Shown here in pieces: positions 40,691 to 43,600 of a DNA stretch of 64,000 bases (the stretch's first letter is position 1; the number at the start of each line of letters is the position of its first letter). Both the position numbers and the translations under genes were made by a program. The DNA is from Sorex araneus (lineage: Eukaryota; Chordata; Mammalia; Eulipotyphla; Soricidae), in the NCBI RefSeq assembly GCF_027595985.1, contig NC_073311.1, positions 48,499,463-48,563,462 on the forward strand. The letters run 5' to 3'. The notes beneath the pieces are model-generated. The model made no database searches and was not told the DNA's origin. It worked only from the letters and a program-made list of their open reading frames with translations.

Positions 40691-43600
40691 CTGAAAGAAA
40701 CAAAAGAAAAGGCATCTGATTTGGGGCTGCCAAATGACAACTGAGAGGCACACTCTTCATTTGTCAGAGACTTTCTGGACCAGTCTAGAATCAGACTTTC
40801 TAAGGCCTATCATAGAGAAGCACCACAAACATCTGCAATAACATAGAGGGGCCCGAGCGACAGCACAGCAGGTAGGGCATTTGCCTTGCATGTGTGTGGG
40901 TGAGGTGGGTGGGGGCCTGGCCGGGGTCACTGTGTGTGGGTGAGGTGGGTGGGGGCCTGGCCGGGGTCACTCACTGTGTGTGGGCGAGGTGGGGTGGAGG
41001 GTCTGGCCGGGGTCACTGTGTGTGGGTGAGGTGAGTGGGGGCCTGGCCGGGGTCACTGTGTGTGGGTGAGGTGGGTGGGGGCCTGGCCGGGGTCACTCAC
41101 TGTGTGTGGGTGAGGTGGGGTGGGGGCCTGGCCGGGGTCACTGTGTGTGGGTGAGGTGGGTGGGGCCTGGCCGGGGTCACTGTGTGGGTGAGGTGGGTGG
41201 GGGCCTGGCTGGGGTCACTCACTGTGTGTGAGTGAGCACGTGCTGCTTGAGGTCCTGGCGCCGCATGAAGAGCTTGTCGCAGTAGTCACACTTGAGGTTC
41301 TTCTCGCCCGTGTGGATGACCATGTGGGACTCCAGGTGGGCCTTCTGGGTGAAGGACTTGTCACACAGCGCGCACCTGTAGTTCTTCTGACCTGCACGGG
41401 GAGCGAGGCACCGTGAGAACACGCACCGCCTCCGGACCAGAGGGCGCGTGGCCGGGCGCGTGGCCAGGGCTGGGACAGGCAACTGGTCACTGGACGCTCC
41501 TTTTCAGGTCTGCCGCCACTCCAAGCAACCAGGTTTATACTCTACAATGGAGGCTCGCAAAGCTGACATGTCTGACCTTTGAGAACCACTAACTGAAATA
41601 TGCAGTGTCTACGGCTGACACAAAGTATTTTTTTACATCACCTATGGCTATGATTTTTAAATCACTTGCAGTGGCACCAAACCTACCCTGTCAATTCTAA
41701 TACAATTCTATGGCAAAGACATTTTACGACCTACTTCTTGCAGTTTCTAGCTTTCTTTTTTTTTTGATGGGAAAGACAATTTATTTATTTATTTTGCTTT
41801 TTTTTTTTGGTTTTTTTTTTAAATTTATTTATTTTTAATTAGTGAATCACCGTGAGGGTACAGTTACAGATTTATACATTTTCTTGCTTTCTTTTTAAAA
41901 TGTATCAGCCTCATGGGGCTGGAGCAATAGCATAGCGGGGAGCGAGTTTGCCTTGCACGCGGCCGACCCGGGTTCAATTCCCAGCATCCCATATGGTCCC
42001 CTGAGCACCACCAGGAGTAATTCCTAAGTACACAAGCCAGGAGTAACCCCTGTGCATCGCTGGGTGTGACCCAAAAAAATAAATAAAAAGGTAAGGTGGT
42101 TGCTTGCTTTGCATGCGGGTAACCTGACACCCCATGGGGTCCTCTGAGCCCCACTAGGAGTGATCCCCAAGTACCTCCAGGTACAGCCCAAAAACCAAAC
42201 ACAAGAAAAATGAAACAGCTACTTCTTAATACGTCTGGAGTGCGGGTAAAGGGTCTGGTCATGAGGCTGGGGAGAGAGCTCAGCAGCTTGATGCCATGTC
42301 TTCCATGCCAGGGGCCCGAGTTCAATCCCCCTCACCACGTGTATGGTCCCAGCAGCCCCCAGCACCACCGGAAACACCACCAGGCGTGACCCTCAAATCC
42401 CCAGCACTGGCGGGGAGACTCCGACTCCGCAGAGGGTGGGCTTGCACGGAGCTTAGGACACAGAAGCCTGAGACACAGGCGCCAGCGGTGTCCACCGGCT
42501 GGGGGAGGGAAGTGGGCCCGTCCTGCAGCAGGCCCCTGGTCAGACCAAACACAGATTCTGTTCTGTCTCGGTTCGGGGGCCACACCTGGCATTGTTCAGC
42601 ACTTCCTCCCGGCAACGTGCTCAGGAGTCACTCCTGGCGGGCTGGGGGGACCAGATGGGGTGCTGGGGATCAAACTCGGTCCGACTGTGCCAGACAAGTG
42701 CCCTTACCTACCCTACTTTCTATCTGGCTCCGTTTCTTTTTCTTTTCCTTTTTTTTTGGGTGTCTTATTTTCTTTTTTGGTATCAATCAAAACCTTAAAC
42801 TGTAACTGCAGTTTTGCACTTCCCACCTCCCCTTCACACCGTGATGTGAGCACCCGCAGAGCTGAGGGTCTCCGTGCCGGGCAGTGACCACCTGCTACCG
42901 CCCAGGGAGGTCCTGCTGACAGCCAGCTCGGCTCACTCGGGGATACGTTTTCCAAGCCTGTCCTTAGGACCGACTGTCTCGCTACCAAGCCTTTCCGACT
43001 GTGATGTCTCGCTGTCGAATGTCGCACATTGATGGCTCAGTATAACTCACCCGTGTGGATCTTGAGGTGGGTCCGCAGGTTGCTGGGGTCGCTGAAGGCC
43101 TTGCTGCAGAAATCGCACTTATGGGGCTTCATGCCCATGTGGCCCATGAAGTGGACGTGCAGTTTGGATGGGGAGATGAACGCCTGGGGGCACATAGAGC
43201 ACTTCCACTTCCTCTCCTTGCCATGGCTGGGCCCGTGGCTGCTGCCGTGGCCCTGGCTGGGAAGGTGGCTGTGGATGTGGCTCGTCAGGTGGGCTTTGAA
43301 CTCCGCGTAGGAATTGCACTCCTTGCCACAGTTGCAGAGGTGCACGTCCGGGTGCTCAGGGACACCTTTGAAGGAAGTGATCAGATCACTCCGTGAGGGA
43401 CCGGGGAGACAGTACAGGAGTCACCTGCCTTGGACACAGCTGCTTCAGCAACCCTGGCCAGACCCGGCCCAGCATCTACTCTCAAGCACCCCCAGGGACC
43501 AGCCCTTAACACAGAGCCAGGAAGCACCCCCAGCCCCCCAAATCACTCACTGTATCCTGATACTTAAGCTTGAAACTTTGTTCTTAATGCTGAATGGTGC

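Follow-up and report, generated by a model that had tools for sequence, protein, structure and literature searches.

A minisatellite that begins at a 5′ splice site of shrew PRDM4, holds two copies of the splice donor and was probably seeded across the exon-intron junction

Introduction

The human IFI6 gene (6-16, G1P3) reportedly carries a minisatellite that provides multiple splice donor sites, as Turri, Cuin and Porter are said to have described in 1995 (Nucleic Acids Res 23:1854). This minisatellite sits at an exon-intron boundary. In excerpts of a later article (PMC4526556), downstream repeat units of IFI6 serve as alternative donors in transcripts. Other tandem duplications carrying splice signals are treated in part of PMC4974935, including ATP2A1, 24-bp AGGT repeats in fission yeast and a potato RdRp case that crosses an intron-exon boundary. 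With respect to minisatellite expansion, excerpts of PMC3486850 state that the G-quadruplex (G4) of human CEB1 promotes rearrangement in yeast, whereas CEB25 acts through Cdc13, not G4.

Here we describe an array in PRDM4 of the common shrew, Sorex araneus, within a 64,000-nucleotide stretch of DNA that we call the window. The array begins at +1, at the 5′ splice site that follows the penultimate coding exon, and two of the seven downstream units contain a donor sequence identical to the authentic one, which is the IFI6 type of arrangement. The locus thus presents a tandem array that seemingly copied an exon end together with a splice donor, and an internal fossil, a PRDM4 retrocopy, bears on its history. 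In the openly licensed PubMed Central literature, we found no paper joining PRDM4 with a minisatellite and none joining minisatellite, splice site, intron and shrew.

Results

PRDM4 was identified on the - strand by a PR-domain exon in the window, upstream of the array, whose top match was the PRDM4 structure 3db5 (6.8e-27; runner-up, 9.1e-6); exons neighbouring it gave zinc-finger Pfam hits. The exon for zinc fingers 3-4 (41223..41391, - strand) is the penultimate coding exon. It is 169 nt long and ends in phase 2; the assignment rests on the Pfam hits, the upstream PR-domain exon and the agreement of its limits with the retrocopy. The final coding exon, whose coding portion spans 40381..40690 (- strand), encodes zinc fingers 5-6, an acidic tail and the stop codon, all of which would be lost upon use of a copied donor. 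The GC3 of the array-side exon (41391-41223) was 0.93, compared with 0.48 for the next exon (40686-40384), with only a 532-nt intron between them. Biased gene conversion local to the array was rejected as a cause, because GC3 was also high in distant exons (0.89 at 43 kb and 0.87 at 62.4 kb) and showed no array-centred peak. On the + strand, at ~19800-23000, the window also contains WD-repeat-like reading frames, possibly of PWP1, the neighbour of PRDM4 in human. According to excerpts of PMC3811882, mouse PRDM4 has six C2H2 fingers, with a pseudo finger and four proximal fingers encoded by exons 9-11. The gene in the window fits this description, and the zinc-finger 3-4 exon probably corresponds to mouse exon 11, as far as the numbering can be derived from those excerpts.

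The array (40891..41222, - strand) occupies 62% of the 532-nt intron. TRF recovered it with a period of 40 (40891-41219, 8.0 copies, 88% matches) and, better, with a period of 126 (40891-41236, 2.8 copies, 95% matches). When split at ACA|GTGA, it consists of eight head-to-tail units of, in order, 42, 39, 41, 44, 40, 42, 44 and 40 nt, which is within the range of minisatellite units (~10-100 bp). A higher-order period of three units (~126 bp) was evident. Units three and six apart had mean distances of 1.8 and 1.5, vs 3.0-3.7 at lags 1, 2, 4, 5 and 7; GTGAGTGA is present in units 1, 4 and 7, and an extra C is common to units 3 and 6. These regularities indicate that the latest expansions were probably duplications of a three-unit block.

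To determine the distribution of the array in the genome, we searched the assembly (G000; 2,405,902,106 bases in 65 contigs). The 18-nt junction motif CACACACAGTGAGTGACC had at least three exact matches in 2.4 Gb, all at the PRDM4 locus, and the 27-nt array core had at least six matches with up to two mismatches, all within the PRDM4 array. Because the core was found only there, in counts that are lower bounds, rather than at several places as a dispersed repeat would be, we rejected the possibility that the array is a dispersed repeat or a piece of a transposon. A search with the whole array yielded five further places (L002-L006) of 67-69% identity, which TRF resolved as arrays of other units. 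Two of the five have features of their own. L004 (G000:C11:1447273-1450595) holds a 16-nt CA/CT-rich unit repeated over ~2 kb, with 29 GTGAGT on the reverse strand within 450 bases, and L005 (G000:C6:162988018-162991314) is a minisatellite with CACACACAGTGACCC inside a 39-nt period that partly resembles the PRDM4 unit.

The far end of the array adjoins the 5′ head of a tRNA-type SINE (40848..40890, + strand), which is cut off at CCTTGCA at the array edge; the 3′ part of the SINE is absent where its middle should come. This head had 51 BLAST matches in the window, itself included, and a strict box-B pattern was found in 24 of them. The 27 misses include the array-edge copy. By eye, most of the 27 continue as SINE past CCTTGCA, while the array-edge copy runs into the array. 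A deletion, or expansion of the array into the SINE, would both explain the truncation. The SINE was rejected as the source of the array, since comparison of the unit with the SINE consensus by eye gave no match. A Sor SINE has been described from Sorex araneus, according to part of PMC11240701.

The PRDM4 exon ends in CTCACTCACACACA and the intron opens with GTGAGTGACC. Six unit ends agree with the last 14 nt of the exon at 13 of 14 positions, in register, and the similarity between exon and units halts 14 nt into the exon. When GTGAGTGACC was fixed and the other 34 nt of the unit were single-base shuffled, a 13/14 in-register match occurred in 1 of 200,000 shuffles. As a more demanding control, the five arrays L002-L006, chosen for their resemblance to the PRDM4 array, were scanned on both strands. 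A match of at least 13/14 followed by GTGA was found six times in the window, always at the PRDM4 array, and 0 times in L002-L006. The 14-mer by itself behaved differently: in L004 there are 29 exact occurrences of the present exon form and 4 of the retrocopy form, and L002 matches the retrocopy form at 13/14 in 14 places. Its presence in the unrelated CA-rich L004 shows that the 14-mer alone lacks specificity, which lies instead in its placement ahead of GTGA. The 14-mer, its near-matches or CACACACAGTGACCC in L004, L002 and L005 indicate that CA-rich arrays can reach parts of the exon-end motif independently.

A further record of the exon end came from a second PRDM4 sequence in the genome. 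Besides the gene itself, a search with the last coding exon found a 38-base piece and, on C12, a match of 95%, three matches in total. With the zinc-finger 3-4 exon there were 11 matches: in addition to the gene, one of 93% on C12 and nine of 70-77% that are probably other zinc-finger genes. The C12 matches adjoin (145345602-145345770 and 145345771-145346079) and lie in an intronless PRDM4 retrocopy (L025, G000:C12:145342500-145348500), in which ten coding exons stand end to end with part of the 3′ region (alignment rows of at least 80% identity). Its last coding exon has a 1-nt gap, and the retrocopy therefore looks like a pseudogene. Its zinc-finger 3-4 exon ends in CTCACCCACACACA, which is identical to the commonest 14-mer of the array (six places) and is one base off today's exon. 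Given this identity, a later synonymous change in the gene would best account for the single mismatch between the array and the present exon; that the retrocopy independently changed to C at the same base is possible, though less probable. In the retrocopy, 41223 is followed directly by 40690, with no array sequence between them, so the source mRNA used the authentic donor, which informs on one event, not on isoform ratios. In this one mRNA, no newly spliced intron with duplicated signals at its borders was seen. The retrocopy may be older than the array.

These observations bear on the preliminary description of the locus, which had claimed an array of eight ~40-bp units running from the exon end into the intron, similarity of the units to the exon before GTGA, and seeding of the array by the splice junction. 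The array was borne out by both TRF and unit splitting, and the similarity by the six unit ends. The seeding claim gained from the retrocopy, as exon-derived sequence is found in register at 13/14 for the present exon and at 14/14 for the retrocopy exon end, which fits an array seeded across the junction at a time when the exon still ended in CTCACCCACACACA. It lost some of its force to the occurrence of the CA-rich 14-mer in an unrelated array. We infer that the unit ends descend from the exon rather than match it by chance. The putative seed includes the last 14 nt of the exon (41223..41236, - strand) and, because the match stops at 14 nt, would correspond to a 44-bp segment (41236-41193).

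We then compared the donor sequences by U1 duplex energy over 11 nt and by a table of donor-site frequencies. The authentic 5′ splice site GTGAGT (41217..41222, - strand), whose use is indicated by the retrocopy junction, scored -6.5 kcal/mol for the U1 duplex and 2.6 for the PWM. Its 11-mer is identical to those of the copied donors, ACA|GTGAGTGA, in unit 4 (41095..41100, - strand) and unit 7 (40969..40974, - strand), and the identity of both copies extends from -8 to +12. Among the 25 GT sites of the intron, these three sites scored alike, and the next best PWM score was -1.9. Compared with seven other PRDM4 donors (the short-exon donor near 46187 was left out), the authentic donor was the second weakest of the eight by U1 (range, -3.4 to -11.5). 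RNA structure hiding the copied donors was rejected as an explanation, since the predicted unpaired probability (0.33, 0.39 and 0.33) hardly differed from one site to the next and so did not set them apart. Eight CACACACA sites, one of them in the exon, raise hnRNP L as a conceivable modifier, which we offer as an idea only.

Splicing from a copied donor would lengthen the transcript by 122 or 248 nt, and both translated isoforms would end ...HVLTHTQ-stop. The in-frame TGA (41219..41221, - strand) would be reached immediately, 118 or 244 nt before the new junction. With the usual NMD rule of 50-55 nt between stop and junction, such transcripts are predicted to be NMD substrates. The immediate stop is not special to this locus, because CAG TGA results at any unspliced junction where a phase-2 exon closes with CA and GTGA comes next. 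The three places in the window where CACACACAGTGAGTGACC stands, which put donors at 41222, 41100 and 40974, agree with the extra junctions (41101/41100 and 40975/40974) and added lengths proposed earlier, and the proposed stop, loss of fingers 5-6 and NMD follow from the translation. As a correction to the earlier description, only the two copies among the seven downstream units have a donor-grade GTGAGT and score as the authentic site does; the remaining five have ACA|GTGACCCC (GTGACC), with poor scores of -1.6 and -2.7. The copies are most likely cryptic donors, with the authentic donor staying the main site, and their occasional use would lead to NMD-targeted or truncated PRDM4.

The array also contains seven G-quadruplex motifs (40898..41214, + strand), one in every unit but unit 5, on the template strand of PRDM4 transcription. 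In 1000 single-base shuffles, the mean number was 2.6 and the maximum 6. The whole window contains 19 such motifs on the + strand and 16 on the - strand.

Discussion

We propose that the array began as a 44-bp segment across the junction (14 nt from the exon, 30 nt from the intron), whose tandem duplication and expansion produced an intronic minisatellite, perhaps aided by the G-quadruplex-prone G-rich strand; G4 may even have driven the expansion. A 4-nt loss (GTGAGTGA to GTGA) would have created the weak-donor unit type, and one unit would have acquired an extra C. Re-duplication of a three-unit block would then have kept the full donor in every third unit. The exon itself would later have changed once, from ACC to ACT, both of which encode Thr.

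That the array expanded from a junction seed, with most likely no selected function and with the authentic donor as the main site, is in our judgement probable as a joint reading, although the scan of L002-L006, which found the 14-mer in an unrelated array, weakens it. The same result gave weight to the alternative that the array was born inside the intron from unrelated CA- and C-rich sequence and that the exon end owes its likeness to chance or to conversion by the array. The motif is indeed CA-rich and of low complexity, parts of it recur in the unrelated L004 and L005, and the exon similarity is as short as 14 nt. This alternative has to accommodate the rarity of the in-register match among shuffles, the lack in all five other arrays of any such match followed by GTGA, the retrocopy's possession of the array's base at the single mismatch, and an array start that is the splice junction itself; we regard it as quite unlikely. 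An error of assembly, in the array or in its length, would not be surprising in general, because tandem arrays are commonly misassembled, but it is extremely improbable here, where the units differ in a structured three-unit pattern instead of being perfect copies and the locus lies within a 67.9-Mb contig, with no N in 40601-41500.

A further alternative accepts the copies and concerns their use: as in IFI6, they would be spliced appreciably, giving the +122 and +248 nt isoforms and lowering PRDM4 through NMD to an extent that depends on array length. It draws on the identity of both copies to the authentic donor, on the rather weak U1 score of the latter and on the similar predicted accessibility of the three sites. 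By analogy, the two downstream repeat units that human IFI6 employs as real donors, as stated in excerpts of PMC4526556, make use of the PRDM4 copies conceivable. The mRNA behind the retrocopy used the authentic site, however, and the TGA comes so directly that a stable product is unlikely; the scores themselves come from a frequency table and a simple U1 duplex. We consider appreciable use unlikely.

The array is thus most likely a tolerated, neutral expansion containing cryptic donors. Excerpts of PMC3811882 report that deleting the Prdm4 zinc-finger domain impairs neither health nor fertility in mice, so it is plausible that some loss through mis-splicing could be tolerated. In a more speculative reading, the array would act as a heritable dial, in which growth in three-unit steps would raise the number of full-donor units, this number would set the share of transcripts entering NMD, and germline array length would tune PRDM4 dose. 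If true, transcription factor dosage would be tuned through splice-site competition, but we hold this to be very improbable. Whatever its effect, the locus illustrates one route of intron lengthening and cryptic donor origin, and offers a system for asking how the splicing machinery chooses among three identical donors 122-126 nt apart. The retrocopy is a useful internal outgroup for PRDM4.

Among the described systems, CEB1 shares with the PRDM4 array a GC-rich tandem structure with G4 motifs on one strand (excerpts of PMC3486850 and PMC2673046); the PRDM4 array differs in being known from matches to the G4 motif alone, not from instability. The cases described in part of PMC4974935 resemble it in the tandem duplication of splice signals, in one case across an exon-intron boundary. 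They differ in that, in PRDM4, an existing intron was enlarged with extra donor sequences and no new intron is shown. The likeness to IFI6 is that both arrays are minisatellites with 5′ splice site sequences in their units. In IFI6, donor use is reported in transcripts, whereas the PRDM4 copies are known from sequence alone, its units are 39-44 nt long, and each full downstream donor would bring an immediate stop.
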